Assembly (NCBI GenBank): GCA_030141605.1
Contig: JAQGDQ010000197.1
Location: 343,673-407,672 of the forward strand
Direction of reading: 5' to 3'
From: Tubiluchus corallicola
Lineage: Eukaryota > Priapulida > Priapulimorpha > Priapulimorphida > Tubiluchidae
Length of the DNA stretch: 64,000 nucleotides
The position numbers were made by a program, and so were the translations under genes. The notes under the pieces are model-generated. The model was not told the DNA's origin, searched no databases, and saw only the letters and a program-made list of their open reading frames with translations. The stretch's first letter is position 1, and every line of letters starts with the position of its first letter. Of the stretch, positions 6,765 to 48,975 are shown piece by piece.

Positions 6765-7401
<637 letters not shown>

Positions 7402-9056: not shown

Positions 9057-10031
9057 AAAACTTATACGTATGTGCATAAATATGCATGGAGAGAACACAT
9101 AAGTTATAGGGCACTGTGCGTTGTACAAATGCGTATATATGTACATATATTAACTACTATGAATGCCGTCGATGAGGACAATGATTTTGTGACAGATTTT
9201 AGCTCCGTAATTTCAGTACATATTTAACACCACACAGAGACGTGCTGGCAAATTTATAGTAACCAGTCTGTTCACGTTTGGTATTAAATTAGCCTTGTCT
9301 AATTAAATTTTGTGGTGTCTTAATTGCCTAGAGTAGGTACTAACTAGACGCAACTCAATACAACTAGATACAGTCACATATTCAATTCGCCAAGTTAACT
9401 TAATTTAGTCCTTAAAGATTAATATTATACATTTCTGCTGTCGAATTGGGTCTTTAAACTAAGGAAAAAGAAGAAACAAAAAGAAAAAGATGAACACTAT
9501 TGAAACCACTGTGGTTCATTCTCAGGTGAAATATTAAGAAAGAAAAAAAATCACATGAAAATATTAAGCGTTAATTTTTTGCGTTACTAATACAAAAAAT
9601 ACCAAACTTAAAAAAGAGTGCAATCATATAGAAAGATGGAGGAAACACACTAAATGAAAAGAAGGAAAAGCACAGAAGCGTAAAATAAATGGCCTCAATG
9701 ATAAATTTTGAGCCTCACTTGAATTTTGGGTTCAGACACATAAGTTTTGGGTTTTACTCTAAGATGTTGGGATTGCGGCCAATAATTTTATACTTCTTTA
9801 TTTTTCTGTCGTGGTTTTTATTCATTGTGTCGCTGTGTTTTTGTACTTTGTGATTGTATCCTTTTTACGTGTGGTACTTTATGTGTTACAAACCTAAAAA
9901 ATGAACATGTTTTAATTCTTATGACTTTTTTCTTTTTATTAATCTTTCATTTGAAACTGCAATGTGGCTTGAAACGTCGCATTCTTTCTTTTTTTTATTA
10001 ATTGTACCTATTCCTGTTATTGACAATTATA
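9057..10031. other. Unassigned sequence inside the inverted repeat
   Basis: AT-rich DNA without recognised coding sequence, between the LINE fragment and the right arm. A purine-rich patch (AAGAAGAAACAAAAAGAAAAAG) is at about 9,468. Confidence 0.4.
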
Positions 10032-13451: not shown

Positions 13452-13919
<468 letters not shown>

Positions 13920-16712: not shown

Positions 16713-16874
16713 TTTGACACTCTCGTTGGCGAGGTGTTCAAAAGCAAGATGGATGTGGCGGGGAGCGAGGGCGAGAAAGAACCTGTTCCCATGAATCTGG
16801 TGCGCAAGGAACGTGATTTGACCATTGACGAAAAGCGATTCCTTCTTGCAGTCGAACATGGGGACATGCCAAAG
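16713..16874 (+). CDS. TRPC exon 1 (first coding exon)
   Basis: Starts after TCTTGTTTCAG, so at least one exon lies upstream. The first ATG is at 16,749 and gives [20 protein letters not shown], then the family signature [13 protein letters not shown]. The donor is AAAG|GTATTG, phase 0. The 12 codons before the ATG ([12 protein letters not shown]) are open and in frame, so translation might begin in an upstream exon; I use 16,749 as the conservative start. The sequence opens the ankyrin repeat domain. Confidence 0.9.
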
Positions 16875-22397: not shown

Positions 22398-25300
22398 CGA
22401 CTGATTGTGCTATCTGATGGTAATTGCCTGGCTACTGTGAGTGAGCAGGCGCCTAAAAACCAGGAGGTAAGTCGACTGAAGCAATATATGTCCGCCTGAA
22501 AACCACTTATATTTTATTTATAGTTTTAATTTGTAGTACTTTATTATGGTAAATGTATATTTAGATGAACTGTATTACGAATCTAGGCCTTTCCGGGACT
22601 TTCATGCAGTGCAAAATGAAACTAGAGCATAGCTCGAGTATGTATCTGTATATATGTATAATACAAATATGCATATAATACACTATATGCATATTTCCTT
22701 ATACGTAGAGACTCTACAACATATGGTAGAGATTCAATTATTTGGTATTATATATCTTATAATACCAAATAACTGGGTCTCTACCATAATTGTTTCCTCC
22801 AGTCTACGTGACCATTTCTTAAGTAACATGTAGCTGACTGTTTATCTAACCTCGGCTTCTAAAGTGCAGGCACGCTAGGTGTATTTGCAGAAGCTAAGGT
22901 ATACAAGATCCACAAAATGCAGCCATGTGGGAAATTAAATGTCACTGTAATATATCTTACTGCATATTTGTTGTTCCCTGCTGTAATGTACACATGCTGT
23001 GGTCAACATGTTATTAACTAAGTTCAAATAGATTAAATTTATTAACAATCGCTATATATGTCTAATAATTATGTTGTGGGTTTACACAAAAAAACATAAG
23101 TGTTATTATGAAATAAACTGAAATTATAGCACCGATGTTATAATGTAGGCAGGCAAATTTATATATCGGCTGCGAACAGTAAATGGATTTTTTTCTAGGC
23201 ATTCATGATAGACTTCTGTGCAATAATGCTTAAAGTTAAAATACAAAAACCATAACAATTCTTAATTATCACTGTAATGGTCACTTTTTTATGAAAAAGG
23301 CGGAGTACTTTTTCTTTTTTTGAACTTTGTGTCTTTTATCTTACAGAAGCTTTCACCCTACCCGACCTCAGCAGCAGCAGAGTCTATACAGCTAATAAGG
23401 ATCCGCTAGGGTGAAAGCTTCTAAGAGAAATAAAAGTTATTATTTTAAGACTATGCAGTCAACGTTTTTTTATGCTAAAATGGTAAGTCTCATGAGAGCT
23501 CTTTCATATTTTAGGCCGTTATATATATTGACGCACAGCCGTATTACGCGCCAAACCTAATGATTAGACAACAAAATCCATATCTATTGTTTACCCAGCT
23601 TGATTTATCACTTGACCAACTTCATCTGCAAATACACGCTGGCTTCATTGCCTTGTTAATAAACCGTGTTGGCTTCGTTTTGTTGGCACATCATCCCACA
23701 GTTGTTAATCTTTGATTGTTTATACAAACGGCAAAAATAGGGCGTTTCAACGTAAACGTAGACGAATTAGGCAGAAACTGCTTCTTTTTATAAAAAAATC
23801 CCACAATTAAATTTACATTGTTTGTTTCATCTCTCCTTTTGAAACTTTTTAATTGTTTATGTTTCTTGATACAGATCTGACGATAAGAACTAGTGAATTC
23901 TTGAAACGTTGTCATGCAGTAATAAAAACTTTATGTATTAGTAGGATTTTGTGTAAAAATGCTTCCAGCTTATGAAGAATTTCGTAGTAATTCTTCTTTT
24001 TATAGTTTATAAATTCGGTGTCCAATAAAATAACTACCATTAATAATATTGCTTTGTATAAAAATGAAAAAGGTGTAAGGCATTGAATTATACTCCTATA
24101 TTAAAAATTTAAATATTTAAAAACCCAAAAAGCTGGCATTATCCTAGCGACTCACAATCCCAATGTCCATCCGTAGCAAAGAAAATAATCATTATTAATT
24201 AAGCTTTTTAGACATGTATTTTTACTGAGCTAATGATGTGTACACAACTAATTTTTGCTAACTTTCACAAAAATGTAACTGTGAACTACAGCTAATAGAA
24301 CTCGTTCGGTTTCTTTGCAGACGCTGAACCAGTTATAAAATGGCTGATTCTAGTAAGTTAGCGCGGGAGTTAGACTTTTTTAAGTTTTAACACTTCTCGA
24401 AATGGGAAGCTTTAAAATAAAGTTGAAAATTTCCACTTAGATAAGGTTTAGAATTTAACATAATGTAATATAATCTTTATTTCATCTTATCGCGCACACA
24501 TACAATTATAATGCAAATGATATTTTGAAAAACATATTGTAAGAAAATGCAGCGAAAAACCAATTACTCATATCTAGTCAGTTGCCTGTTGATTAGTGAC
24601 GATCATTTTGTTTGATGTTGTTCTATTACAGTTAATAATACGTTAATAATAAAAATTAATTCTTATAATATGACATTAAATTAATAAAATAAGGAACCAT
24701 AGTTCATTAGTGACAGATGAAATAATAATATATGATAATCAATTTGAATGTTAATTTGTTTGACTGAATTTTATAACGCTGTTTTGCAGGAAGCGTTTCC
24801 GCCGCCGCCTCCATATGAACAAGTTAGAGAGAGTGCCTTCACGTCAGATATTACGCCTATCATCCTCGCAGCTCACCGGGACAATTACGAAATCATTAAA
24901 ATTTTACTGGACAGAGGTGCGAGCATACCCATGCCTCATGACGTGCGCTGTGGGTGTGACGAATGTGTCCAGAACAACATGTCGGACAGTCTTCGACACT
25001 CGCGCTCTCGATTAAACGCTTATCGTGCCTTATCTAGCCCGAGCTTGATCGCCCTGTCGAGCAAGGACCCCATCCTAACCGCATTCGAACTCAGTTGGGA
25101 ACTCAAGTATTTGAGCGGTATTGAGAACGAATTCAAGATGGAGTATGAACATTTAGCGAAACAGTGTCAAGAGTTCGCGGCCGTCCTGCTCGATCAGACT
25201 CGAACTTCGCAGGAATTAGAGGTCATACTGAACCATGATACCGGCTCGAATATGTTCGATCAGGGCACGTCGGTGCAACAACCGCCACCTAACGACCGAA

Positions 25301-28300
25301 TGTGTCTCAGCCGACTTCGGTTAGCCATAAAATACAAACAGAAAAAGGTGAGCCTTTGAGGTATTCTGTTAGTTTCTTGAGATTTCAATTTCCGTGTATT
25401 TCAACTTGCAAATTGCAATTTCTGAGGCCAGCTACTAAAGGGTGTAACGTAATCATTTCTTGTGGGTGCTGAAACAAAAAACAATTTATTGCATAAAAAT
25501 ATTGCCCGTAATGAAAGTACAATCTACATCATCCATATTTCGTGTGAGAGCCTCGCATGTCTCGCACAGCCTACAATATTGAGGGGCATGAATGGAGACT
25601 CAAAGAGAACAGCTAGGGTTAAACTCGTGATAGTTCAACATATCCTGTAGATGTCTCCCAAGCTTGCCTTTTACGTCGATCAATGATATGTCTTTGGATC
25701 GTCTTAGCCTCCATCCTATCTTCATGATATCTCCAAGGTGTTCCGGTCCGGGGGTGAAGTCCGTCAAATTTTCAAGTCATAAATTTCAATTTGCCCCAAT
25801 CTCACCATCTCAACATTGCAGGATATGCTAGATACACAAGGTTTCGACACTAGATGTTGAGGGCACGATAGATTCTCAATTACCTGAATAGTACCTCTGA
25901 TGAAATAAATTGTTCTATACTATTACTTGTTTTTTTCACCCCTCCCCCGCCATACTTTACAGGACACAGTTTCAATGATCATTTTGCACTAATTTCATAC
26001 TTTTACAACTTTACGTTTTTTAATTGATATTTTCACTAATTGTTATTGTGAACATTAAACTAAAATGAATAGAAGGTTTCAGGCGCCTAGATAAAGCTCG
26101 TAACAGCTTAAATAAAAAGTTTTTTGTGAAAATGGATTTCTAAATGCATAGCAAGTTTGCTTCAATACAGGCTAATTTGCTTTAATTCCATGCATGGACT
26201 TCAATAGAAACAGCAACATCGCTAATTTTAGCCACTGTCAAGCAACTGCCATATGGAAGTGACATTTCTGTACATCTCGTTTCGTCACAAACCGTTTTTA
26301 GATGTGAGAAATACAAAATCGTATTGGTAATAATAAAACCAACTTATCGAGTGACATGAAGCCCATCTGAGAGTTCTATTAAACATATAGATGGAAAGGT
26401 TACATCGTCGACGATCCCTCACTCTCTACATGCACACATAGGAATTGTATTTGTGTGCGCGAGAGACGGAAGTCAAAATTCTTTCTCCTGCTAAGAAGAC
26501 TGACGTCATCATCTGGCTCTTGACATTTCAAGGTCGAAACTCTAAAAGTCACCTTTTACATATAACACAGTCTGTTGCCATATACGGTAAAAGTACGGTT
26601 AATTATCTCGATTTTTCATAAGGTTGTGTACTAGAATGCTCATTCAACTGTCTTACGTTGATGACAAATCACACAGCGGGATTGCTTTATTAACTGCCTG
26701 ATGAAAAATAATCGTTTCGTGTCTGAGTAGCAGCACTTTTCTGTTTTTGGCGTGTAAAACAAACAAGATCCTGACATATGTCAACAATTAAAAAATTTAA
26801 CAAAAATATTACGCGTAAAATATATCAAGTTACATCTCATAGTTGTGTCGCTTAAAAATACAAATACTATAATAAAATAATTGTAATAATATAATTAATT
26901 ATATTAAATTATATTATTTTTTTATATTAAATTATATTATAATTATATAATTTCATATTATAATAATTATAATATGAAAATATTGTAAATAGATTATTAA
27001 AAAACTAATACTTTTTTAACATTAATGAAATTTTTAAACTGTTGAGTGCACCTAAATTAATGCACTAGGGAAACTTATCTGTTCTGTAGAAGACATGTTT
27101 CTTACTTGTCATAGTTTTGATGTAATTTTTTGCTTTTTGCAATAAACTCATCTAAATTATAACTCAAATAACATTTCCAGGTCAAGGGTTTCTATTAGGG
27201 CAAATTACTAGACGCATGTTTCCTACGTTTCCAACGTCAATGAATTAAATGTCTCATATTAAATATTTATGCTACAACTGGTAAATTTTAAAAATATATA
27301 AGCTCTACCTAATTATTTACCTATTAAAAAATAAAATGTCACGAGATCCGGTTTAGATGCATACGAAGGGCATACAGTCTTAGTCTTACTTGTCAGTTAT
27401 ATATACCTTTCTAATCCGGAATAAATTGAAGCGTGCCCAAGAAACCTGAGCCACTTATTAGTCCGATTTCAAATCGTCCGATTTGCCGAGCAAACACGAA
27501 TTTGTGTTACTGGGCTTCAGTCTGTGGCTTCCTAACCTGACTTGTAATATAAGCACAGAACAGCTCACTGCCACTGTCTTCCTGATTTAACCTGTAATGT
27601 AAGCACTTAACCGGTTACTGGATTACTGCATTTTGCATGATGCGTTCCTGTAATGACAATGTGTCACATAGGACTTTCTGTCATTTCAACGTACCATTCC
27701 TTGTGAGTGGTAAATACGAAAGTAATTGCAGCTTGCATCTCAGTCTAATGTCTAACTGCAAACAATTACTTCCAGCAAATTGATGTAACATGATTTAAAC
27801 AATTTTTTGTCGAGATCGATTTTTTTTATTACTCGTGAAGTATTAATATGGGAAGAATGAAAACTATAATTTATTAGTCTGAATTCTGACCTCACCGTTT
27901 GCACAGTTTCAAATTGTGTAACGTTTGTGAACGTTTATTGGGTAGTAAAAAATAACCGAAGTTTACAGTCATTGGTTAAGCAGGCAAAAATAGATCTTAT
28001 ATAATTTATCACTCTGAAATCCTGAATACACCCTGAATACAAAAATTAATGATATAGTTAGTAATAATTAAGGAGTTAGGAACCTTTCTGAGCTACCAAA
28101 GCCCTTCTTTTATGATGGCATGGTGACCTAAGCGTCCAAGTTGAGATCCTTATTAGCAAAAGTCAATACGTAATGATACTGTTGAAATTACGTTTTCGGA
28201 ACCGAATTTTGACTTTTACGATAAACCTGTCACATTTAGGCCTACCGCTTTCTATAACTCTGTCGTTTCATTAATACTTTAACATTTTGGTTACAGTATA

Positions 28301-28530
28301 ATACTAACACATTTTTTGCTTATGCCGTCTTCCAGTTTGTTTCCCATCCAAACTGCCAACAACTGCTAGCTTCCATTTGGTATGAAGGTTTACCTGGCTT
28401 CCGACGACGAAATATCGTTTATAAGGCAAGTATTATCAAGTGCAAATATTATTCTAATAAAATCCGTCGTTAACCAAAAGCGAGATCATGTTTCGTAAAG
28501 CGAGGGCACTGAATGCTTTTAATGTGTGCA

Positions 28531-28583
<53 letters not shown>

Positions 28584-31500
28584 GTGTGTGCGTGTGTACG
28601 TATACATATATGCCTATACATACTATTAATATTATATTTAGAAACATATACATATATAGTTCTGTTTATACAGAAAAACGATTACTGTGCGACTTTGCCC
28701 AGTATAATGATTTTGCCTAGCCATTCATTAGTTTGATGGCAGCCATTTGAAAATCAAGATTGGTGTTAGTTATAAACAGAGTAATGAAATAATCACACAG
28801 TAAATTATAATCAATTAGTAATTAATAACCAGTCGCCTTGTAATATAGCTCGGCAACGTAACCCCGGGCTACACGATTGTCATCACTTCTAAAGAAAATG
28901 AAAAGTTAAAGGAAAACAGGATGATTTTTCATATACCCCACCCCATTTTGAAGTACGGTAAAAAGTTTATACTTTAAGACTTATAATAATGTCAAAGAAT
29001 GTCCGGTAATTACATACTTAAATAACGGCAAGGGAGTCCAACTAGTGATGATGTCACAACTGAATATAGTTTTCAACTGCACAAACATTCAACGAGCATA
29101 TTGCAAGGGTTTGAAAAAGCGAAAATTGAAGTACAGTGCTACTATACAACATTCAGTGCGATGTACAAAACTCATATGATTTTTTAATATTACCACTGTG
29201 CTCACGCATGAGCTCTCGAACGTGTGCACTACGTCACAAGTGAACAACGCTGAATTGAGAGGTAGGCCACCTGCTTTTTATGCAATTTGTTTGCGAGATG
29301 TAAGTGCTAGTGCCCTTCGAATTGCGAATGGCGAAATGAAAGTAACACAGAACAGAACTAGCCGCGCAAACGCGAAACTACCATTTCTTGGTAATCATTC
29401 TTTCACAAAAGTCATTCTTGAAAAAATAGCATGTTCCCTTTCACTATTTTACAAGGTCGATTGAGCCTAGTTTAAGATGGGGTCTTTTAAGATTCTTACG
29501 ATTCTTCGTACGAGTCTGTTAGTTAGCTAAAAACAATATCTGAAACGAGATTGCAGTTCCTCAATAAGCTGTGTGGCTCCTGATTAAAGCTTTCACAATA
29601 ATTTTTCATCGTTTTTGTTTTCAGTTATCCATGATTGGTGTCGTAGGGCTCATGTTTCCAATTTTTTCCATTATCTACATGATAGCGCCAAAAAGCAGCG
29701 TTGGTCGTATGCTGAGGAAGCCATTTATAAAGTTTATTTGTCACAGCGCCTCATATTTTACATTTTTATGTGAGTATTTTCTTTTTTCTTCCTTTTTCGT
29801 AACGACAAATCTAAATTTAGGTGCCAGCCAAGTTTGAATAGCGTTGCAATATCATGTACTTCATCATTTAAATAGTACACAATGCCATTCTAATTCCATC
29901 TGTGCCACATGAGATTTTCGTTCTTCAATTCTCTTCTTACATGCTAAAATCAATGTGTTTAAAAGCATGTAAGAGTTTGATTCATTTATTTTTGCACAGA
30001 TGGAAAGGTAGATGCGCCTTAAATGCTTCTCAGAAAGTGATTTATTAGAAAACTCCTAAACACGTGCATTTTGGCAAAAATAGGGTACCTAGCGTTGATG
30101 ACCTTTAAATTTTTATCAACACTTTTATCAATAGTTATCGCCGATCCATTATTGATTGTTATTGAATAAGATTGCAACAAAGTGCTAGAAAATATTAAAT
30201 AATCAACAAGACAGATTGCTGTACGTCAACAAAGGACATATACTAGAGACAAAATCCCCTTACAATGGAGCACAATAAAGGGATTTGTTTGTTTGTCATT
30301 TTGTCTGCCTATTAACTGTATATCGGCGGGTCATTGGGTCTCTGTCTGTCGGTAGGTCAGTCGGTTTCTGTCTGTTTGTCTGTCTGATTAAAAGACTATA
30401 TGTTTCATACTTTTACTTTAGTGTTTTGTCTTTAACGTGAGCTTTTTTGCAGTTTTTTTAATATTGGCATCACAGAGGATAGAGTCAATTATCAGCATAG
30501 GAGAAGAAAACATTCCAGACCAGGAACCAGACAATAGCTCCTCTACGCCTACTTACAAGAATGAACGTCGCGGTGCCCCTGCCACAAGCATAGAATGGAT
30601 GATAATGGCGTGGGTCTTTGGTAAGAATCGGCGTATTTGCTTATTTGTCTATTTGTCTGTCTGTCCGTTTCTGTTTGTGTTTTCCCGCTGGTGGATAGCT
30701 TGTTAATTTGTTGCTAGAGTCTGTCTTATTTCTTAGGCTGTTTTTTTATTTGTTTCTTGGATTTATTATGACAAATTTAAATGCTGGTATTAGAACATCT
30801 TATTCGGAACTCATTCTGTGAAACGTTTTCTTGGCACTTCGAAGTGGAAGGGATTTTTTCACACTAAAGTCGAACAGACACCTTACTTATTACCCCATCC
30901 ATCAATCGGTGCACAACAATAAGGATACTAATCTGTACGCTCATGCTTTACTTTCTCTCAGGTTTAATATGGATGGAAATTAAGCAATTATGGGATGATG
31001 GATTGTGGGAATACGTTCACGACATGTGGAATATTCTAGATTTCATTACCAATGCGCTTTATTTGGCAACTATAGCACTACGTACTTGTGCCTACTTCAT
31101 GGTATGTATTAAAGTCACTTAAGATTTTGAAATAAATTTATGCCGCATTGCTTATCGACAGTGCAAAAGTGATTTTCTCAAGCCACGTTGCATATATTTT
31201 TTATAATTGCGCAAGAACAAACGAACAAGCGAAGATTAAACGTTTGTAAGCAAAACTATCCCACTTTAAAGTTATATTGTAAATGATTTATTGGGCATTA
31301 AAACTATCAATTATTTATTGGTATTAAAATTTTTGTTATTGTTAAATTTCAGTACACTATTGTATACAATTTTTACCTTGAATCCACAAATTTTGCAGGA
31401 CCGTTGCATCCACCCGAAGACATTGCGTTTGTTCGTTGAAAGTCTATTATGTACAACACATTTGTAAAAATGTGCGAAATGCTTTATTTGCTTCAAAACA

Positions 31501-34500
31501 CGAGAAACTGCACTATGAAGCCTTTCAATTACAAAAGTAAATTCGCAAAAAATATTCATTTAATTAACTGTAACATTCATTCTTGCTTCCAGAGCTCACA
31601 AGCGATAGGGATTAGACTGTAGACTGTATTTTGCAATAATGGTGAATACATACCCAGCATTTAATGACGTTGTAAACTCAACAGTTAATTAGTTGCTTAG
31701 AGGCTGCACATTAAAATTTCAGCCTTTGATTTACGGCTGCTTTGTCCGCTTTTCTAAGCAACGAAGTCCCCAAATACCGTCTTTCTAACATCCCATTTAG
31801 ACATGCACATCAGGCAGGCAGGCAATGCCCTATAACAAGAAATTTTTTATAATTTGAATATTAAGGTCTGAAAAAAGCAATACAAAACTGGAAGACCGTT
31901 ATAGTAAAAGGAATTGAAAACACCATACATGGTATAAAGCAACATGACTCAAGCAACTGTAAGCCATTGAATCTATAATTATAAAAAAGATAAAATCTTT
32001 AGGAAATATAAAAAATAAAAAAGGAGATACACTGTGTTATGATGGGCAGTGAAATCTTCGGGTTTCAGTAATTGGGCCTACTGCTTATTAGCCGTCCACC
32101 AGAGACTATACTCTCTAAGCTTGTTATCTATGCTGATTATCCTAAGCCTACACTATCTAACTCACTACGAGTAAATAACTCGCATGGAAGCCTTGAAAAT
32201 GATCTTGAGTTGGCTTTGAACTTTAGCCAAGATTAGCTTGTCACCTTTAATGCAAAGAGGATGAAGCTTATGTCAGTAGTGTGAAACTTCTTAGAAATAC
32301 ATTTTCCGTCGAGCCTTCTACCGTATTTTTTGCCAGAAGTTTTTTCCTTGCTAATTACAACCTCAAGAAAGCGCTACAATTATTAGACAATTAATTATTT
32401 AAATTGAGTTTTATCAACTTACGCTTAGAGGCGGAATTAATTGAGTCTGATAGGCAGCGATCGAAACGTGCCATGATCACATAGGTGCAGTATGGTAGGT
32501 GCATTTTGGGAGTCCGTAAAGTGATTTAACAAACTGTTTGATTTTTGCGCACAAGCAGACGTCTTCAAATCTGTAGTGCCTTAGCGAACTTACCCTTGCC
32601 GCACATATACTTGTGCTTGCGTAAATCATTAATGTATGATTGATGCGTAGGTCAAATCTGGTGAAATAGGCTTAACACTTTCTGTAACAGAAACTTTTTT
32701 CTCTCTTAGGTCGAACAAGAAAAGCTTGAGGGTAAATGGGAAATGGCCATGGCTCCCCGCAAAGACTGGGACGCTTACGATCCTACTCTCATCTCAGAGG
32801 GTTTGTTTGCAGCAGCAAATATATTTAGTTCTTTGAAGCTTGTACATATTTTCACCGTAAATCCTTATCTCGGACCGCTTCAAATATCGCTAGGTAATCA
32901 AATTTTACTCTATGTACTGGTCATGAAACAATGTATTTATTCAAAAGCTATTTCTTTGCGCAATCATAATTTAGTCAGCAAAACCGCGAAAAGAAATTTA
33001 TTATTTTTACATAGAATTCCTGCAAATAATTGTAAGGTATTATGTGAGTACTAAATTTTATGTACAGATGTCAAATTCATCTTTGTATGTATTTTCTTCT
33101 TTAGGTATAAGTTATTTACATAAATTTGATACAAATTTCTTTCCACAATTTTGCTGACTATACTGTAACATTGTGTATTTTGGCGTCTATAAATAGTTGT
33201 CGTCGAACTGACGCAGCTGAGAAGGGCCGATGGGCTGAGCCACAATAGGGCAAGTAGGTGTGGGGCGAGACATTAGGGTGGAATAGGATGAAATTGGAAT
33301 GGATTGAAAACTTTGGATGGTGTGAATTAGGGTGGCATGGATTTTTAACTGCATAAGTTTTCATATATAAGAAAAACTGCATCAGAAATTTGAACAACTA
33401 CTTAGATAGTTGTAATAAACAGGACGTGGCTGTACATTGTGTACAATTCATACATTGTGCACAAGTTTCTTAATGAGAATAGCTGATTTTTGTAACTCGG
33501 ATTAAGGTTTTCTAAAATGGTATTTAGCCCTAAAATATTACGTGTTTTATATAATATTATTACCTATAATAATTTTTTTATTTCATATGTTTTTGAAGTT
33601 TTTTCTTATTACCTACTTGCAACAGTGATAGAACAGTAGAAAAACTGCAGACAGTTTGCAGGCATATTCACTTATTATTAATGATAATATGCGAATTTAG
33701 TAATTATATATCAGTCTTGTTTGTTATTTTGTTCTAGGTCGAATGGTTTTTGATATCATGAAATTTGCTTTCATTCTTGCTCTTGTGGTGTTTGCTTTTG
33801 CTTGTGGTCTGACGCAACTGTATTGGTATTACGCCACCATGCGAGCAGACGAGTGCCTCAGGGGTGGTCCTGAAGATTCTTCCTGTGATAAAAAATATAA
33901 GAGTTTTTTAAAGTAAGTGTACAATGGTAAATATGGCGCGACGACTTTAGTTACTCTGTGTATGTATATTATATAGCTCTTCCTGATAAAAGATGAGTAG
34001 ATCGTCTTTCTAGTACTTTCTTTCAATCAACGTTTGACTCTGGTAAGGAATCTTGTGATTTCAGCAAACGATTTTGCATTTGCTATTTCCTAAGTACCTA
34101 TCTAAGATTCCGAAGAAAAATCATTTCTGAGTGCTACTGCTACTGCTGCTCGTATCTAAAGATTATTAGAATCGTTTTCACTTTTTGCTCTTATTATGTT
34201 TGCTGCAACAAGGTGTTCCTTCTGTTAGACTGACCTATGTATCATTAACTTTTAATGTGGTTTACAGACAGTGTAGTATTAGACTTATTTAGAACATGGA
34301 CTTATGCCCCAAACTGTACGTTGCTGATGATAGTACATTTTCCCGCTAATGAGTAATTCAGTGTAACAGAAACTATTCATTGAAATCCTTGTAAACATTT
34401 TCAGTAATTTTCAATTCATTGAGATCTTTTTAATACATTGTGAACATATTTTCTAAAATGTAAACCTTAAAACTGTACAGTAAATCACACTAATTTTCTT

Positions 34501-34972
34501 TGTATATGTGAGGAGCGGTGCACAAGTAATCCAAAAAGGAACTGACTATGCAATACAATAGCTATATTCATTTTCTCTATGAGCGCCCCAGCCCCATAGA
34601 ATAAAATTTCAGTAGCGTAACCATAATAACGAAGAACTTTTAAAGCTTTAGAAATATATCTTTTACAGAAACTTTTAGAGAAATCTTTTTAATGAATTTT
34701 CCTCTATAAAACAGTATTACACAGCATTTATGCGCAGTATTCCACAGTATTCATGAGGAATTTTATTTACGCTTTGTATTGTCGCTGTTTTAAGATATCC
34801 CATTTTGCATCTTTATACTTTTACCTATGTAAATATACAATGATTTTAGGTGTTAACTGTAGGTCTTATTTTCCTTAATATTTTTGGTATTGACTAATTA
34901 TTTTACTATTGTCAGTGTCTTGCTGAGAAGCAGTGTAGCGCTGTAAAAATTTATTATTATTATTGTTGTTGC

Positions 34973-35006
<34 letters not shown>

Positions 35007-38000
35007 ATATCGTCAATACAGAATTTCTGTAATGATTTCGTAAATTCTAAAAAATTGTGTATTTTTATTTACTAGTTAAGTAATATGCATTGATAAAGCA
35101 CAAATCTATTATGCTGATTATACTAAATCTATTATACTGATTTTACTAAATTTTATCTGTTTCCAGCTTGTTCGAGACATTGCAGACCTTATACTGGGGT
35201 CTGTATAATTTGATCGACTTAGATCGGTTTGACTTGAAGGAAAATCACACCTACACAGAGTTTGTTGGACTCCTTATGTTCGGCTGTTACTCGGCCATTT
35301 CTATTGTAGTCCTTTTGAATATGCTCATAGCTATGATGTCCAACTCATTTCAGTACATTGCTGTAAGTACAGCAAATTCACTGTGCAAAGTGTGCAATGT
35401 GCACTGGTTGACCTCACTGTACTTATGTTGTTGTTATCTGCACACTTAAACTACCGGGCTTTGAAATGTCAAAGTTTTTTCATGTCGGTACAGTTTATGA
35501 CTGAAATTGAAAGAAAATTATATCCTTTTCTGAGCTATTTTTTATTTCAAAATGTTTTCAAAGCTCAAATTTATATTTTACAATGAAAAGATCCTCTCAT
35601 TTTGGAGGTGCGCATTTCAATGCCTAGTAGTTATTCTTTAGCAGCACACGTAGTGATTGTACTTTACTCCTTGTGTAGAGCTTCACAGTAGGCGTTTCCC
35701 GCGTTTATAAGGGCTTGTTTTCAATTTATTTGGTTTTATTTCAGTTTGTTTGAGACTCTGCAGACTCTGTACTGGGGCCTTTTCAGTCTGGTAGATCGTT
35801 CGCACTTTGATCTACTAGAAAATCACGAATACACGGAATTCGTAGGCCTGTTGATGTTTGGTATTTACTGTGCTATGTCGATAGTGGTGCTTCTGAACAT
35901 GCTGATTGCAATGATGTCGAATTCATATCAGTTCATAGCAGTAAGTTGCTATGCCAACCGTCGCATGTCTATCCATCTTTACCTTCAGCTTGTTTCTTGC
36001 ACCAGTTGACTTAAAGCTATGGGGAATTTAAGTATGCGATTCGTCAATCTTACCTCACACAAGCGTATAACCAACATAAGAGACATGAAAAAAACAGCTT
36101 AAAATTGCGTCATTACTGATGCATAAATAAAAATTTCATTACTTACAATATTAACATGACACTTTTCTTTGTAAAGCTGTACGTAAATCAAAACAGAAAT
36201 AGAACTTTACCGTGTACATGATCAGTAGGTCCTAAATTATAACTAAATACTGTTGACTTGCTTTGCGAATAACTTGTATTATTGAAAGAAATAACTTTTA
36301 TTAAAAACTTTAAATTGCAAAATACTAAAAAATGTCAAACGTTTCGACTGCAGAGCCTAACAGTCATCTTCAGTGTGTAACAACTAGCTGCTTTTGTATA
36401 CTGTATCACACTGAAGGTGACTGTTAGTCTCTGCAGTCGTTATATGCTTTTAATGTTTTATATTTTAAAGTTTTTAATAATAAAAATTGCTTCTTTCAAT
36501 AATACTGACTTGTGCTTATTAAGATAGTTCTAAATTTGATAACGTTTTCTTTTCTTATGCAAACACGACATTTCAGCTGTACAGCGGCCTTTTTCAAATG
36601 AAAAATGTCGTTTTTGTGTAACAAATTAGCTTTCGTGGTATTCATGATTGATACTTTGGTATATTAGTGCAAGGGCATATGTAATTCCATGGGAAATTCA
36701 TGTTAATTTTTGATGCTACATATTATGTAAAGCTTGCGATGAGTATATTTTAAAAAATAAGATGTAATTTTTTAAGCAATTTTAACTCAAATATCAAAAT
36801 GGCTGCCGACTGTTGGAGCTTCTATATTCTTAATTCTATATTAAGTGAAACTAATTGTTCAGATGTTTAGTTACAATGCCTGTTAGTGTCCATAAATGAA
36901 TAAATCTCACAGCGAAACATCTCCTTGGCTAAGCCGCGTGCCCCTACAACCCACACAACACCATGGCAACAATCCAAACTGCTCCACAACAATAACCAAC
37001 ACCACATGACACAACGACGTTGGTGAGGTTGAACAACACCGACGACAACAACAACAACAATGACAACAACGACAACAACAACGAGGACAACAACGACGAC
37101 AACGACGACAACAACGACGATGACCACGACGACGACCATGACGACGACCACGACGACGACGCAGTAGCGAAACCATGCAAAAACATTTTGCCCAATATTA
37201 AAAGTGTATATACAAACGCTATTAGACCGATCCACTAATGATCAATAATGCACGACATTCAACATAGTCTTTCTTTACTACTTTTCAGATGGTAACAAGC
37301 TAACATATACAACTTATTATAGCTCTTTCTATAACACAAATGAAGGTGATGACACAGTGGTTGATGACAATACCTTTCCCATTTGCCAGCAGTGGATATC
37401 TCTTTAAACGAAACATCCACACCTTACAGATCTGCCCATTCTTTTTCTGATAGTGTGTATAATTATTTTCTTCCAAGACGCGCAAACAGCACTTCGAGTT
37501 TTCTTGAGTCTGTTTGTGCAGAAACCGCTGATCGCCACAAACCACGGGTCTATCACGAAATTTAATTATGCCTATTACACTCACCACTGAATGGATTCCC
37601 AACCATTATTGGCGCGACACCGGCCCACCCCTTTCTCTCAAACTAAGGACTATAAGTTTTGTGAAAATGGCGATTTTTGAAGGTTTTCGTCGCCTGTTCC
37701 TCCCGGTAGCCACGATTCAAAAGGTAAGCAATCGATAGGAGTACACAAATCAAGACCTTTCATTTGATATGTAGAAGTATAGATCTATAGATCACCAACA
37801 AAGGCGCAGCCCTTGAAGCTGCAGTTGCGGCAGTTACATAATAGAATAGCAATGGATAGTGGGGAGGGATACAGATAGAGCATAACCAAGATGGTATTAC
37901 ACTAACGCTAACAGGTATTACAACTAGATATCTAAACTAAAGTCTATTTTCACTTAATTAGAAGCAAGAATATATCAACTTGAACAGTTGGCAGCCATCT

Positions 38001-41000
38001 TGGATGCTATCTTGAATTTTGAGCTTACATTTGTTAAAAAATGAAACCACATTTTTGCAATGTACACGTCATAATCTTTAAAGTGATATATACAGTAGCA
38101 TCAAAAATTAACACGAATTTACCATAGGACCAAATAATCGTACATATGCTACTACACAGTATTGTTTGTTTTTCATTTATTTATTTCCTTATTTATTAAT
38201 GTTTATCCAAAATATTCCTTAAGCATGTATGCTTGTTATTTTCATGTTTAGTAATACTAGAGCATGTTTTACTCAAGTTGCTTATTCATTAAAGTGTAAG
38301 TCTGTGGGTAAAAACTTGATATTAAAGAAAAGTGGTACATTTTTCACCAAGTTCCGAAAGGCAGGTGGCAATAATGAGTTTCTCTGAAGAAAAACTGTCA
38401 GCGAACATGATTAACATCATTTTTGTTGCCAAGTTTACCACCCGTAATCACTGATACATGCGTCTAGACAAAAAACCCACTCCTGGTTAAATTACAAAAG
38501 TCAGCGGACTTGTAGTGAGGATGTAAAATGATCCCTGTCTCTGTTAAACGAACTGTTAAACTGTTCGATTCAATTCCATAATAAATTGTGTTTAAACAAA
38601 GTATGTAGATGCATTATTGATGTTACTTTGATTATAAGAATCATCACGTTAGATAAAAAGATTCTCTGTAACCTATGCATGCATTTGGTGTTGGGTCTGA
38701 TTAGATTTAGATTTCTCACCAGTTTTTAGTTTTTAGCTAATCAGTTTATCAATTACTTGTGTAAACCACAGGCACCACTTCTTTCATGGTGAATAAACAA
38801 ATTATATAATACCCAGCCAACGGCCACTCTTGCAATTAGAAAAATATACAAATTCTCCATAAATTATTGCTTCTGCTTATTCTGCTTAAATATTTTCACA
38901 AATCTAATTGACTGAATGTTGATTAAAACTGTCACTTTTTGCGTTTCCTGGATCAATTGCTTATTTGTTTGTTTCATTCTTGCAGAATCAAGCTGATTAT
39001 GAGTGGAAGTTTGCACGTTCCAAGCTTTGGATGTCTTATTTCGAGGAAGGAGGAACGGTGCCGCCGCCTTTCAATATCATCCCCAGTCCCAAGTCCGTGT
39101 ATTACCTGCTGAAATGGTTTTACCAGAAAATTTGTAGCTGTTCCACTAAACAGAAGCGAACTCGCTGGAAAAGTCTCAGAGTAATTTTTTACATTTAATC
39201 GCTCCCCCCCAACCGTCTAGCGCTTACAAAACTTCAGTGACACTTGAATTAACAGAAATAGGGTTTCGCTTGTTTTACCTAACTATTTCACCCCAGAAGG
39301 TTTTTTTTTGAATAAGCAGATATTGTTTGCATACTTGCGATCTTACAGTTTCTAGAACATAAGAAACTTGATTAGACTACTGTGCTATCACTATTCCAAC
39401 AAACGTTCGTATTGTTATAGTGAAATCGATTTAGTTTGTTTGTTTCATTTGTTTCATAAAACAGTAAACCTAAAATATGCAGACAATTGTTATTTTTCTC
39501 TCCTCTGGTCCTCTGGATTACTGGCCCAAAAATATTTTTTCTACAGACTATTCCAATAGCTACAATCTACAGCAAATACTATGAGGCTATCACTATTATA
39601 ATATAGAAAATCAAATCAAAATGGTCGTATCAAGTTACATGATGGGAAAACTGGAATAATGACGTAAAACTATTTATGCCTTTATAATGTCATAATGCAG
39701 AAGTGCAGGTCCATTTCGTCGTGCTTCGTAATATTTCTATTACACCGCTTCTTTTAGAACATCCTGTAAGATTGTTAGAACACCCTTTTATTTTTGTCAT
39801 GCATTATTGGGCATTTCTGTGACCAGTAATCATTACAAGAAGCTTTCCTTTTTTGGTTATATCTTAGACTTTAAATAAGCATTTCTTTCACAGAAATTTG
39901 TGCGAAAAGTCAGTGAAAGAGACGCTCGCTATCAAGCGGTTATTCGGAGTCTGGTGAAACGTTACATTACTAACATGCAGCGACAGCAACAACACCAGGG
40001 AGTCAACGAAGACGACATCAACGAGATAAAGCAGGACATATCTTCATTTCGATATGAACTTTTAGAAATACTCAAGTATAGTGGAATCTCAGGCCCACCC
40101 GGGGAACGCAAATCGAGTTAGTATTGATTTGAAAACTCAGGCCCTCATTTCTAATAAAGCAAAACTTACCGAAAAAATCTTATCATTAAGAAAGATGTTT
40201 CAGACTGTCGCTGGAATTTATCTTTTATGTGAAAGAATAAGAAAGAAGGAAGGAAAAAAGATAACAAAAAATTACTATACTAATTTAGGGGGGAGTTTTT
40301 ATATTGTCAACACACAAAGCTATCAGACTAAAAATAATACGACCACGTAGAAAAACAAAGAAGCACAGCAAATAAAAACAGAAGGGAAAAACACGGAAGT
40401 ACAAAATCACTGTCTACAGTATATAAGAGTGAAACAACGAGTTTTTTTATTTTAACTTACAGACCTATGAGTACTCAAGTTTATTTCAGGAGATAAAAAG
40501 TGCTATATAAAAGTTAAAATTTACACTAAAAACTGAGAAATACTACATGTCATGCACTATTAAAAGAGCTATGAAAATTTACAAAAACATAATAAAAATA
40601 TTTACGGAATTTAAAAATACAAAGCATCAGTTAGAAAACCAGCGGTTTCTACATAAAAAATCATGACATCTTCTAAATATTTTACTATACAATCGCACAT
40701 CTGTTTGGTGGCATATATGATTTACAATAAAATTTTTATCTGTCAATTACAAGCACTAACATTTAATTTGTTTCAGCAATGAACAAGAAAAACCGGCTAC
40801 AAGAACGTCGACTGATGAAAGGTTTAAATCTGGAGCGAAACATTGAAACCATCCCGGAACAGGATTTCGATCTTCCAGATTTCCTCAAAACCGATTACAA
40901 AAAGGGACGACCCCGGCATTCTCAAAGTGTTAAAAGATTTACTCATCTATCTCGATTTCGAATAGGAAGTAGAAAAGGAAAGGCTTCAGCGGCTCAACAA

Positions 41001-41644
41001 TGGGACGACCTCATTTCAACAGTACGTGCACAAAGACAAAAAGAATGCATTAAGAAAACTCAAAGTGCCTCGCTAGATAGGCAGTCCACATTAGAAACAG
41101 ACACTAGTTTTTCCAGTGATCCTAACCTTGTACGTGACACAGACAACACGGTTCAAGTTGCAAGTGCATCAGCTCTGGCTACAGCTGTGGGGTTGCACGC
41201 AGAACCAGGTTTGAAACTTCGCCGTACAGTTTCTCAACCTCCTCTGAACAATTCCGGTTCCTCTCCATTTAACATACAACCTAGTAGCTCAGATACGACG
41301 GACGTTCTTCAGTCTGAAGGGCCAAAGCGCGTCACATTTGAGTGGAAAAATTCTGTTGAACCTCAGACTGTACAATATGTTGAACCGGACCATAAGTACA
41401 CCAGCGTTCCCAGTACGTCTGTTGGGCTAAAGAAACGCAGTTATGGCGCAACAGTGACCAATGGTGACCAAGAGCCATCTGATTCTCCCTCCTGACAATC
41501 AGTGAAATTTAAGACTCATGCTGTCTTTCTTTGACAGTTTTGCTTCTATGACTAGCAAATTATATATTTTGTAGGCACTTTGTGCCATATTGTAAATACT
41601 TAATTAATTATACAAATATTATATAAACTAATTTAAATAATAAA
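16713..41644 (+). CDS. TRPC-family cation channel gene (TRPC4/5-like), whole locus
   Basis: Thirteen consecutive plus-strand exons join in frame (126+258+558+90+145+168+140+184+175+196+195+223+716 coding nt plus stop) into a 1058-residue model. Exon 10 exists in two versions. The product should be a plasma-membrane, non-selective, calcium-permeable channel working as a tetramer downstream of receptor/phospholipase C signalling, as known for the family. Visible in order: ankyrin repeats (about 25-180), zinc motif H178/C182/C184/C187, pre-S1 region, S1 (about 378-400), S2 (437-455), calcium site E454/Q457/N472/D475, S3 (470-494), S4, S5 (564-588), extracellular C596/C606, pore and S6 (616-672), TRP box EWKFAR (686-691), CIRB-type coiled coil (about 757-805) and a Ser/Thr-rich tail. 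The [10 protein letters not shown] and TEFVG motifs point to TRPC4/5 rather than TRPC3/6 or insect TRP. Family usual length is 800-1100. Confidence 0.95.
16875..18656 (+). other. TRPC intron 1
   Basis: GT...AG intron. A TGAATTTGAATTTGAA retroposon-like tail stands near 17,985. The membrane-like frame at 18,169-18,363 resembles nothing I know. Confidence 0.8.
18657..18914 (+). CDS. TRPC exon 2 (ankyrin repeats)
   Basis: Bounded by AATTTCAG and GG|GTAAGT, phase 0 on both sides, 86 codons. It carries the core TRPC ankyrin signature ([41 protein letters not shown]) and ends in a very charged helix rich in Lys and Glu. This matches the order of vertebrate and insect TRPC N-termini. Confidence 0.95.
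19010..19085 (-). mobile_element. tRNA-like SINE head
   Basis: The minus strand reads TGATATAATGGTTACATAG (A-box-like), then about 35 bases later CTTGAATTGAACCCC (B-box-like, GGTTCGAANCC). The cloverleaf is not clean, so it is a tRNA-derived SINE head or tRNA relic rather than a working tRNA. Confidence 0.4.
19306..19760 (+). pseudogene. Tc1/mariner transposase remnant
   Basis: The first frame shows helix-turn-helix-side sequence and the first catalytic block: [20 protein letters not shown], then FSDESRL (first Asp), followed by a stop at 19,543. Another frame resumes with the block [14 protein letters not shown], where the usual second catalytic Asp of QDGAP is Gly. It ends in YSLDLNPI (the PDLNPIEN block) and a stop before the acidic third residue. 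The middle of the catalytic core (VMVWG region) is missing. It is truncated, frameshifted and catalytically dead. Confidence 0.85.
19767..19847 (+). mobile_element. tRNA-like sequence (SINE head or tRNA pseudogene)
   Basis: ACAGGTG at the start pairs perfectly with CACCTGT at the end (7-bp acceptor-like stem, 81 nt). Inside are an A-box-like GGCAGAGTGATTAAGG and a B-box-like CGAAATCGAATCTC. The layout resembles a long-variable-arm tRNA (Ser/Leu class), but the anticodon stem does not pair well, so I treat it as a tRNA-derived relic. It lies immediately 3' of the Tc1 remnant. Confidence 0.45.
20500..20981. mobile_element. hAT-like MITE, old copy
   Basis: The left end GCCGGATTAAGGC...GGGCTGCAGCCCAGGAG and right end TCATAATCCGAG resemble the ends of the element at 153-530. 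No coding capacity. The target duplication is not evident. Confidence 0.4.
22337..22398. repeat. (GA)n microsatellite
   Basis: About 30 GA units, preceded by a short GGGA repeat. Confidence 0.97.
23345..23422. repeat. Perfect 16-bp inverted repeat, small palindromic element
   Basis: AGAAGCTTTCACCCTA at 23,345-23,360 pairs perfectly with its reverse complement at 23,407-23,422, around a 46-base loop containing CAGCAGCAGCAG. The sequence ACAGAAGCTTTCAC also occurs at about 851, so the arm is part of a dispersed family. Confidence 0.6.
24790..25347 (+). CDS. TRPC exon 3 (ankyrin end, zinc motif, linker helices)
   Basis: Bounded by TTTTGCAG and AAAAAG|GTGAGC, phase 0 on both sides, 186 codons. 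It begins with a run of prolines, continues with the fourth ankyrin repeat ([20 protein letters not shown]) and then [10 protein letters not shown], the TRPC zinc-binding HxxxCxCxxC. Linker helices follow with [18 protein letters not shown], a TRPC hallmark. The end [12 protein letters not shown] leads into the [11 protein letters not shown] block of exon 4. Confidence 0.97.
25348..28335 (+). other. TRPC intron 3
   Basis: No second gene seen. The stretch 26,870-27,000 is almost pure A/T with several short self-complementary blocks (e.g. ATATTATAATAATTATAATAT) and could extrude hairpins. Confidence 0.8.
28336..28425 (+). CDS. TRPC exon 4 (conserved pre-S1 block)
   Basis: Thirty codons containing [20 protein letters not shown], one of the most conserved TRPC segments. 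The acceptor is CTTCCAG. The donor is TATAAG|GCAAGT, a GC donor: the flanking bases are otherwise a perfect consensus, and no GT donor nearby keeps the family sequence. Phase 0 on both sides. Confidence 0.95.
28426..29624 (+). other. TRPC intron 4 (GC-AG type)
   Basis: Starts GCAAGT and ends TGTTTTCAG. It contains a CGCA/CA microsatellite at 28,527-28,580 followed by alternating purine-pyrimidine sequence. Confidence 0.85.
28527..28580. repeat. (CGCA)n(CA)n microsatellite
   Basis: Alternating purine-pyrimidine tract continuing into GTGTGCGTGTGTACGTATAC; a possible Z-DNA former. Confidence 0.95.
29625..29769 (+). CDS. TRPC exon 5 (pre-S1 and start of S1)
   Basis: Starts after TGTTTTCAG; ends TTTTTAT|GTGAGT in phase 1. 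It encodes [20 protein letters not shown] and HSASYFTFL, the usual re-entrant/pre-S1 hydrophobic segment and the first half of S1. Confidence 0.95.
29770..30452 (+). other. TRPC intron 5
   Basis: GT...AG. Near its 3' end it has a CTGT/GTCTG-rich pyrimidine stretch (about 30,330-30,390). No other feature. Confidence 0.85.
30453..30620 (+). CDS. TRPC exon 6 (end of S1, S1-S2 loop, start of S2)
   Basis: Enters in phase 1 after TTTTTTGCAG and restores [11 protein letters not shown], the TRPC S1 end. The variable extracellular S1-S2 loop follows, rich in acidic and Ser/Thr residues, then [12 protein letters not shown]. Donor TTTG|GTAAGA. Confidence 0.95.
30621..30961 (+). other. TRPC intron 6
   Basis: 341-bp GT...AG intron beginning with another TCTGTCTGTCC stretch; nothing else. 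Confidence 0.85.
30962..31101 (+). CDS. TRPC exon 7 (S2-S3, calcium-binding site)
   Basis: Encodes [20 protein letters not shown] and [21 protein letters not shown]454, Q457, N472 and D475 match in identity and spacing (3, 15 and 3) the four intracellular Ca2+-coordinating residues of TRPC4/5 structures. Donor TTCATG|GTATGT, phase 0. Confidence 0.96.
31102..32709 (+). other. TRPC intron 7
   Basis: GT...AG intron without another recognised element. The 82-codon minus-strand frame at 31,311-31,559 resembles nothing known. Confidence 0.85.
32710..32893 (+). CDS. TRPC exon 8 (S3-S4)
   Basis: Acceptor TCTCTTAG, donor CGCTAG|GTAATC in phase 1. It encodes [40 protein letters not shown] and the S4-S5 entry, all standard TRPC sequence. 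Confidence 0.96.
32894..33737 (+). other. TRPC intron 8
   Basis: GT...AG. A G-rich patch with tandem GGGTGGCATGG-like motifs lies at 33,200-33,345; otherwise plain AT-rich sequence. Confidence 0.85.
33738..33912 (+). CDS. TRPC exon 9 (S5 and pore turret)
   Basis: Encodes [20 protein letters not shown], the rest of S5, and an extracellular turret with two cysteines (C596 and C606) that could form the pore-loop disulfide known in TRPC4/5. It ends TTTTTAAA|GTAAGT in phase 2 (two bases AA left over), the phase that both versions of exon 10 accept. Confidence 0.96.
33913..35166 (+). other. TRPC intron 9
   Basis: GT...AG intron. A (TTG)n microsatellite occurs at 34,951-35,006, about 160 bases before exon 10a. 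Confidence 0.85.
34951..35006. repeat. (TTA)n(TTG)n microsatellite
   Basis: T-rich trinucleotide array on the sense strand upstream of alternative exon 10a; a potential binding tract for pyrimidine- or TTG-binding splicing factors. Confidence 0.95.
35167..35362 (+). CDS. TRPC exon 10a (alternative pore/S6 exon, proximal)
   Basis: 196 nt between TGTTTCCAG and ATTGCT|GTAAGT. Joined to exon 9 it gives [13 protein letters not shown] (pore helix), the filter region [14 protein letters not shown], then [20 protein letters not shown] and [17 protein letters not shown] (S6 and gate). It enters in phase 2 and leaves in phase 0. The filter Asp (D632 in the model, equivalent to the key pore acid of insect TRP) is followed by Leu-Asp-Arg. 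All positions are open and the splice sites are strong, so this is not a dead copy. Confidence 0.96.
35363..35744 (+). other. Intron between the duplicate pore exons
   Basis: 382 bases, GTAAGT to TTTTATTTCAG. No third copy of the pore exon is present here or in the following intron. Confidence 0.85.
35745..35940 (+). CDS. TRPC exon 10b (alternative pore/S6 exon, distal)
   Basis: 196 nt, exactly the length of 10a, between TATTTCAG and ATAGCA|GTAAGT, with the same phases. It encodes the same pore helix [12 protein letters not shown], a different filter flank ([14 protein letters not shown]), [18 protein letters not shown] and [21 protein letters not shown] count 52 identical residues of 65 with 10a. 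The pore Asp is kept, but the following Leu-Asp-Arg becomes Arg-Ser-His. Inclusion of both exons reads TTT GTT TGA at the 10a-10b junction, an immediate stop. Confidence 0.96.
36277..36504. mobile_element. Fold-back (palindromic) MITE in the pore intron
   Basis: Left arm 36,277-36,377 and right arm 36,408-36,504 are near-perfect reverse complements (TATTATTGAAAGAA at the ends; CGACTGCAGAG-CTAACAGTCA and CTTCAGTGTG near the centre), with about 30 bases between. The RNA would form a hairpin of roughly 100 bp. The central TCTGCAGTCG and TAACAGTCA motifs occur in widespread animal repeat families. Confidence 0.75.
36900..37163. repeat. C/A-rich block and (GAC/AAC)n microsatellite
   Basis: CAACCCACACAACACC-type sequence followed by AACAAC/GACGAC units. 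This is the reverse-complement counterpart of the G/T-rich block at 13.45-13.75 kb, placed directly before dispersed copy A. Confidence 0.8.
37164..37288 (+). repeat. Dispersed repeat, copy A
   Basis: Begins GTAGCGAAACCATGCAAAAA and matches copy B at 44,906 and copy C (minus) at 13,331-13,451 along its length. It ends CATAGTCTTTCTTTAC. Confidence 0.7.
37393..37565 (+). CDS. Exon-like open island in intron 10, unrecognised
   Basis: After CATTTGCCAGCAG a frame is open for 57 codons to TAA at 37,563-37,565. It encodes [20 protein letters not shown] and [20 protein letters not shown], a plausible hydrophilic tail. The island is less AT-rich than its surroundings. It would need a phase-1 donor, whereas exon 10 leaves phase 0, so it does not fit simply as a TRPC terminal exon. 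The opposite strand is also open for 100 codons, which weakens the case. Confidence 0.2.
38986..39180 (+). CDS. TRPC exon 11 (TRP box)
   Basis: Acceptor CATTCTTGCAG, donor CTCAGA|GTAATT, phase 0. It starts [20 protein letters not shown], containing the TRP-domain EWKFAR and its following helix, then [20 protein letters not shown] and a basic Cys-containing stretch. It joins either version of exon 10. Confidence 0.97.
39181..39893 (+). other. TRPC intron 11
   Basis: GT...AG, with C- and T-runs near the donor; no other feature recognised. Confidence 0.85.
39894..40116 (+). CDS. TRPC exon 12 (coiled coil/CIRB region)
   Basis: Begins [20 protein letters not shown], then [13 protein letters not shown] and [20 protein letters not shown], the conserved calmodulin/IP3-receptor-binding and coiled-coil region of TRPC4/5-type channels. 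It ends AAATCGA|GTTAGT in phase 1. If this donor is not used, the next codons read Ser-stop, so intron retention gives a natural short C-terminus. Confidence 0.95.
40117..40776 (+). other. TRPC intron 12
   Basis: Begins GTTAGT, in which TAG is the in-frame stop used if the intron is retained; ends TTTGTTTCAG. AT-rich, otherwise empty. Confidence 0.85.
40777..41495 (+). CDS. TRPC exon 13 (C-terminal tail and stop)
   Basis: Joined to exon 12 it reads ...[21 protein letters not shown]. The 239-codon tail is basic at first, then Ser/Thr-rich with possible phosphorylation sites (RRTVSQ, KKTQSAS). It ends SDSPS with TGA at 41,493-41,495. It has no obvious PDZ-binding terminus, unlike TRPC4/5 (TTRL). 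The tail is not conserved with families I know, but the reading frame, acceptor and following poly(A) signal support it. Confidence 0.9.
41639..41644 (+). terminator. Polyadenylation signal AATAAA
   Basis: Canonical hexamer about 145 bases after the exon 13 stop codon; the likely 3' end of the main TRPC mRNA. Confidence 0.65.
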
Positions 41645-47265: not shown

Positions 47266-47568
47266 CGAAGAGTCTGCTAAGAGTACTCTGTTTTTTCAAA
47301 CTCTACGCTATGTTACCTAAACTTGTTTCAAGCGACTTACCGTTAAAATGGCTGCGGCTAACGGTCATCGCGGGAGTTTAAATTTACAAGTTTTATACAG
47401 AGCTACTACTAACGCAATAAGCCATCATGTATGTGATATAAAATATCAAGACAATTTTTTTATTATTATTAATAAATAAATCTCGTTTATTTACAAATTA
47501 ATCAAAACTTTCCATTTGCAAGGCACGTGGACAAAAGAGAGAGGAACAGGGTGATAGATGGAGAAAGG

Positions 47569-47868
<300 letters not shown>

Positions 47869-48001
47869 GAAACTGTTGTGCATAAAATAAACAATTTTTC
47901 AAAAATAACAATGATCGTACATAATCGTACCTAAAAATAACGTTGGTTTTCACATATCCTTCACAGATAATCTTGTAACCACACATTAAGAACATTAATA
48001 T

Positions 48002-48700
48002 CTAGTTTTTTATCATTATGTTACCAAACCTCAAAGATAAGCCATACTTTCTTCTTAAGTGACAATGACAATCGTTAGTTAAATACAACGTTAATTGAAT
48101 ATTGTCGATGCTTGAATTTTGAATTTTCTTTAAAAAATTTAATTTTCTACAATCAGTTAGAACGTTTGCAGGCGTGCTACCACGGTAATGCATTAAAACC
48201 TTGACACACTCATTACTATTCTTCCTATGAAAAATCTTCCTATAGGCTATGTTCCAGCAAACTTTTTAAATATTTTCTTGAATATAACAATATGAATTTA
48301 TCAGCGTTTTGGACACCATTTCATTACATCTCCTTCCTAGAGTTGACAATAACGAGTGAAACAATGCATAAAATTTGCTTTTATTTATAGCAATGTCCAT
48401 TTTAAAAATTTTATAAGATTTTATATCAATTCCTAAGTATTTTACCTTCTCCTTCTAAATCAATGTTTTACCATAAAAAAATATTTTACCAACCCTATGA
48501 CCCCACATTATCTATATAACTACCAAGTTTTACAAGGATTAAATGTAATAGACCCAGTCTGACCATACATTTCATAGATTTTCAACATTTTCTTAAGATG
48601 ATTATGTGAACCAGCCATTAGGGCAATATCATCGTCAAACATGACTGATCCAAAGAAGTTTCACCAACATGACACCCCAAACCTGATTCACGCAGTCGCT
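48002..48700 (-). pseudogene. LINE reverse transcriptase remnant
   Basis: On the minus strand SGLGCHVGET precedes, after a frameshift, FDDDIALMAGSHNHLKKMLK and GQTGSITFNPCKT. This is the palm region of a non-LTR RT (usual box YADD, here DDD). Further on, RRCNEMVSKTLINSYCYIQ and SIDNIQLTLYLTND-like thumb and C-terminal sequence follows. Several stops and frameshifts interrupt it. The LINE clade is not clear, and it is a different family from the remnant at 4.9-6.4 kb. Confidence 0.75.
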
Positions 48701-48708
48701 TATTATAA

Positions 48709-48975
<267 letters not shown>

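Follow-up and report, generated by a model that had tools for sequence, protein, structure and literature searches.

Can a single TRPC gene make two channels with different pores? The question is raised by two tandem exons on the forward strand of a 64,000-nucleotide stretch of the Tubiluchus corallicola genome (this whole stretch is referred to as the window), which the initial annotation described as alternative modules of a TRPC pore in the architecture of mutually exclusive splicing. Judged on their sequence, the two exons are best read as mutually exclusive exons that would tune the selectivity filter and the outer pore, similar to exons 15a and 15b of NALCN. Through such a swap, the gene is probably able to produce two channels that differ in their pores.

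A TRPC gene with two copies of its pore exon

The gene was assembled from 14 coding exons on the forward strand between positions 16713 and 41495, of which any one transcript uses 13. The first coding exon (16713 to 16874) contains an in-frame ATG at 16749; the gene model is less certain upstream of this ATG, at the 5' end of the gene, and at the exon 12 donor. The gene model and Pfam placed ankyrin repeats in the second exon (18657 to 18914), and ankyrin and TRP_2 domain sequence in the third (24790 to 25347). The next exon of the gene model (28336 to 28425) ends in AAG followed by the GC donor gcaagt, giving a GC-AG intron after 28425. Upstream of the duplicated exons, the gene model and alignment gave exons at 29625 to 29769, which appears to cover the pre-S1/S1 region, at 30453 to 30620, 30962 to 31101, and 32710 to 32893, and exon 9 at 33738 to 33912. 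Exon 9 is predicted to encode S5 and the turret, and its last two bases are the AA of an Asn codon. Downstream, the gene model comprises exon 11 (38986 to 39180), which carries the TRP box EWKFAR after S6, exon 12 (39894 to 40116), for which gttagt is the predicted donor, and exon 13 (40777 to 41495), which encodes the C terminus and contains the stop codon.

The family of the gene product was examined using domain and structure matches. Pfam scores exceeded the curated cut-offs for the N-terminal ankyrin repeats (Ank_2, E value of 9.4e-13, 49 bits against a cut-off of 27.3), the TRP_2 domain (PF08344, 98.8 bits against 27), and the six-helix ion transport domain (PF00520, 95.5 bits against 25). 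The best solved relatives, which also gave the best matches along most of the protein sequence, were TRPgamma (PDB 9vqq, which we take to be the Drosophila structure) with 1048 bits, followed by TRPC4 with 886 and TRPC5 with 869. Because the three domains lie above their cut-offs, the EWKFAR motif follows S6, and these are the best solved relatives, the predicted product is assigned to the TRPC channels as a TRPgamma/TRPC4/5-like member. The pore helix motif reads LYW in both copies of the duplicated exon and in a close paralogous gene of the same genome (on contig C25), and LFW in TRPgamma, TRPC4, and TRPC5. The window also contains open frames at 5550-6414 and 8352-9149 on the reverse strand and at 19264-19545 on the forward strand, which presumably resemble pieces of LINE reverse transcriptase and mariner transposase. 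Pfam searches with frames 5550-6017, 8352-9149, and 19264-19545 gave nothing above the cut-off, and Rfam gave 0 matches. A COX1 search had no match, and neither did a search for a molluscan haemocyanin domain, for which all 14 controls were silent as well; 11 homeobox matches may be of lophotrochozoan type.

The two copies, exon 10a (35167 to 35362) and exon 10b (35745 to 35940), are both on the forward strand, 196 nt in length, and separated by 382 nt. Each has a CAG acceptor, a GTAAGT donor, and no stop codon. Either copy supplies the final base of the Asn codon left incomplete by exon 9 (AA completed by C or by T), and both finish on a codon boundary. The copies are identical at 52 of 65 residues and at 132 of 196 nucleotides (67%), with 53, 54, and 25 of 65 identical bases at codon positions 1, 2, and 3, respectively. 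The initial annotation had given the same size, phases, splice sites, lack of stops, and residue identity, and a base-by-base check reproduced its numbers. In leave-one-out scoring, the donors of 10a and 10b scored 4.71 and 5.76 (2.83 to 8.0 for the other 11 donors of the gene) and the acceptors scored 9.84 and 9.92 (0.11 to 13.62 for the other 12 acceptors), so that both pore exons fall within the gene's own range.

Such a pair could also arise as an assembly artefact, if two alleles or two paralogues had been joined in one contig. We consider this explanation hardly credible, as the nucleotide identity between the copies is only 67% and the flanking 300 nt of intron sequence resemble each other no more than shuffled sequences do. 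In addition, the other exons of the gene are single in the window, where a tblastn search with the whole protein (E value up to 10) found no second copies of them.

One pore exon at a time keeps the reading frame open

The consequences of each exon combination were read from the sequence. With 10a alone or 10b alone, the frame is open for 1058 codons. When 10a is joined to 10b, an out-of-frame TGA occurs at the third codon of 10b, and when neither exon is included, a stop occurs within exon 11. Because the inclusion of both or neither breaks the frame, one-at-a-time inclusion is the sole productive choice. Under this frame rule, each productive transcript would carry exactly one of the two pore exons, and the products with both exons or neither would stop early and be degraded or dead. 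The mutually exclusive architecture proposed in the initial annotation thus appears well supported by the equal size and phase of the exons, the few replacements against saturated silent sites, and the single-inclusion frame.

Both copies appear to be old and under selection

At E values up to 0.01, at least 7 matches to the pore exon were found in the genome, and the matches listed comprise the 10a/10b pair, the close paralogous gene on C25, the more distant TRPC-like genes on C1156 and C162, and two partial S6 matches (C1009 and C1738). In the C25 gene, the pore exon is present once; it measures 196 nt, begins and ends in the same phases as 10a and 10b, and is equally distant from the two copies, with 53 of 65 residues identical to 10a and 52 of 65 to 10b. 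As to the order of the exon duplication and the gene duplication, all three topologies passed the AU test (P values of 0.71, 0.29, and 0.36; 65 residues). By eye, the TRPC-like gene at C162:280205-280390 (L013) has a 454-residue open frame that starts upstream of S1 and continues beyond the TRP box with no intron, unlike the TRPC gene of the window, which is split over these regions by introns.

Between 10a and 10b, pS was 1.01, which is saturated, and pN was 0.136. Because the silent sites are saturated while the replacements are few, both copies look old and selected. Of the 31 positions that are invariant in C25, TRPgamma, TRPC4, and TRPC5, only 2 are changed in 10a and 3 in 10b. A chance likeness of the two exons was judged unlikely. 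When 63 random differences were introduced into 195 coding nt in 5000 trials, the mean identity was 26/65 and the maximum was 36/65, compared with the observed 52/65, and a stop was present in 91% of the trials.

If one copy were dying or unused, the gene would make a single channel, as the single pore exon of the C25 paralogue might suggest. This explanation is improbable given the small number of changes at invariant sites in each copy, the lack of stops, and the splice scores within the range of the gene. The saturated silent sites with few replacements also argue against it, although the pS/pN test is pairwise and a very recent decay of one copy would be compatible with its result. We consider it very likely that the locus is a TRPC gene with a tandem-duplicated pore exon and that its productive transcripts carry 10a or 10b; the choice between them would probably tune permeation.

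The copies differ at the filter, outer mouth, and upper S6

To locate the differences within the channel, the 65 residues of the two copies were compared position by position. The 13 differing exon positions (13, 14, 16, 18, 19, 20, 24, 28, 40, 42, 44, 61, and 63) are located at the filter, the outer mouth, the upper S6, and just after S6. In contrast, positions 1 to 12, forming the pore helix, and positions 45 to 60, forming the lower S6 with its NMLIAMM motif, are identical in both copies. Eight of the 13 differences fall within positions 13 to 28, which cover the filter and the outer mouth. This clustering is modest, as 623 of 20,000 random placements contained some equally dense 16-residue stretch. 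The exon does encode the pore helix, the filter, and S6, as initially annotated, but S5 and the turret are not part of it. Because the pore helix and the lower S6 are identical and S5 and the turret are predicted to lie in exon 9, the swap concerns the filter, outer mouth, and upper S6; the earlier description of an exchange of the entire conduction pathway was too strong.

The filter reads YNLID in 10a and FSLVD in 10b. Position 14, which corresponds to TRPC5 G581 by alignment, is Asn in 10a and Ser in 10b. This residue is Gly in all 6 relatives whose filters were compared (C25, TRPgamma, TRPC4, TRPC5, C1156, and C162), a comparison from which TRPC1, TRPC3, and TRPC6 were left out although they were matched. 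Thus, TRPgamma and TRPC4/5 keep the filter glycine, whereas 10a and 10b do not. The position of TRPC5 N584 is Asp in 10a, 10b, C25, and TRPgamma. Just outside the filter, 10a has Leu-Asp-Arg and 10b has Arg-Ser-His, and where TRPC5 has E595 (numbering by alignment), 10a carries Thr and 10b carries Glu. The net charge of positions 13 to 32 hardly differs between the copies (-3 for 10a, -4 for 10b), which lends little weight to a simple charge-based explanation of calcium selectivity.

The two predicted proteins would share everything else, including S5, the pore helix, and the lower S6, and the swap would be expected to tune permeation, extracellular cation block, and inactivation instead of the stimulus to which the channel opens. 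We infer from the replaced residues that the two isoforms differ in permeation. TRP subunits form tetramers, so a homotetramer of either isoform would carry the change in all four subunits. For the same reason, mixed pores could be assembled in cells that express both isoforms. In a 2019 review, the TRPC5 G581A mutant is reported to conduct a large, rapidly inactivating current and the N584A mutant a minute current (PMC7017149). A filter glycine is given as conserved at 86.3% in the alignment of an eLife analysis (PMC9242649). Since neither copy retains the filter glycine, conduction might be impaired. A more specific proposal is a filter switched by splicing, in which Asn or Ser replaces the glycine and gives two pores, together with their mixtures, that differ in how they select for calcium, are blocked by cations, or inactivate; the C25 paralogue keeps a glycine pore. 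We regard the case for and against this proposal as evenly balanced.

Alternatively, the two isoforms might be nearly equivalent and both exons used in an unregulated manner, with only the frame rule and decay removing the wrong products; the arrangement would then mainly set the amount of channel. The early stops after double inclusion or skipping and the identical lower S6 are consistent with such use. However, the replacements are found at the filter glycine, the outer mouth, and the upper S6, places that are likely to change permeation, and we consider unregulated use unlikely.

Comparison with known pore-switching exons

The reading of 10a and 10b as mutually exclusive pore exons was compared with splice variants described for other channels. 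NALCN exons 15a and 15b are tandem, mutually exclusive exons that encode the P-loop together with the proximate portion of S6 and change the residue at the narrowest point of the filter, and they are known from flatworms, molluscs, annelids, echinoderms, and hemichordates (PMC3557258). The TRPC pair is similar in that tandem exons span the P-loop and part of S6 and a filter residue is changed. However, NALCN is a four-domain channel in which one domain of four is swapped with an E/K change, whereas the TRPC pair places Asn or Ser at the filter glycine. In invertebrate CaV3 T-type channels, turret splicing in the pore region is reported to shift the sodium/calcium selectivity (PMC4436565). There, the S5-P-helix loop of a four-domain channel is changed, in contrast to the filter and S6 in the TRPC pair.

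A study of human and fly genes describes tandem duplicated exon substitutions as ancient, as giving homologous isoforms, and as enriched in ion channels; its main text contains 0 words beginning with TRP (PMC9741552). For insect TRPgamma and TRPL, two reports place the described splice forms in the TRP domain and the N terminus (PMC7143563 and PMC6137742). The initial annotation knew of no described TRPC with a pore exon pair, and none was evident among the papers listed in searches of the open-licence literature, for which mostly titles and the beginnings of abstracts were covered, making this a weak test. To our knowledge, there is no pore exon pair in TRPgamma or TRPC4/5. The locus would thus represent a known device, pore-switching exons, in a channel family for which no report was found, and it would bring this device, so far seen in NALCN and other four-domain channels, into the TRP family. 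According to the 2019 review, the pore basis of TRPC4/5 permeability ratios, for example of calcium to sodium, is difficult to explain (PMC7017149). Two natural pores in a subunit that is otherwise the same, with 13 differing positions that include the filter glycine, offer a ready-made swap experiment.

Candidate elements for the exon choice

Sequence features that might direct the choice between 10a and 10b were searched for in the introns around the pair, and no mechanism that would enforce it emerged. Both pore exons have GT-AG sites, which were checked with regard to a U2/U12 mechanism. The inter-exon intron, at 382 nt, is probably too long for steric exclusion. The predicted pairing of this intron with its two neighbours was -37.4 and -34.3, compared with -35.6/-36.6 and -32.8/-40.5 for two shuffles each, and thus gave no signal. 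The lack of pairing above shuffles is a further result that fits unregulated use of both exons. In intron 9, the inter-exon intron, and intron 10-11, TGCATG occurs 0, 0, and 1 times and GCATG occurs 0, 0, and 4 times, respectively.

The pair is flanked by two complementary arrays annotated on the forward strand, a (TTA/TTG)n array in intron 9 (34951 to 35008) and a (CAA/ACG)n array in intron 10-11 (37032 to 37115), with a predicted stem of -63.3 kcal/mol between them. In this model, the arrays could form a long-range RNA stem that loops out 10a and 10b, which is only a lead and may be due to chance. The same energy was reached by 5 of 2131 windows across the 64 kb, two of which lie on the partner array and three of which start at 48721-48781. 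Because these 5 windows reach the energy of the stem and arrays of this kind abound in the genome, the stem was not leaned on in our reading of the locus. An 18-base ATG repeat has 19,032 forward and 18,140 reverse matches genome-wide (overlapping matches counted), and other long trinucleotide arrays are located in the window at 6735-6938, 13776-13990, 47558-47890, and 48700-48950.

Inverted repeats were also observed in intron 10-11. About 350 nt downstream from exon 10b, nested inverted repeats at 36286-36492 might fold into a hairpin. A second set of inverted arms, at 36678-36838 and about 37959-38136, is separated by about 1.1 kb. These arms have seven genome matches, including themselves, and contig C1399 carries two of the matches in opposite orientation; the arms are perhaps a low-copy foldback mobile element.
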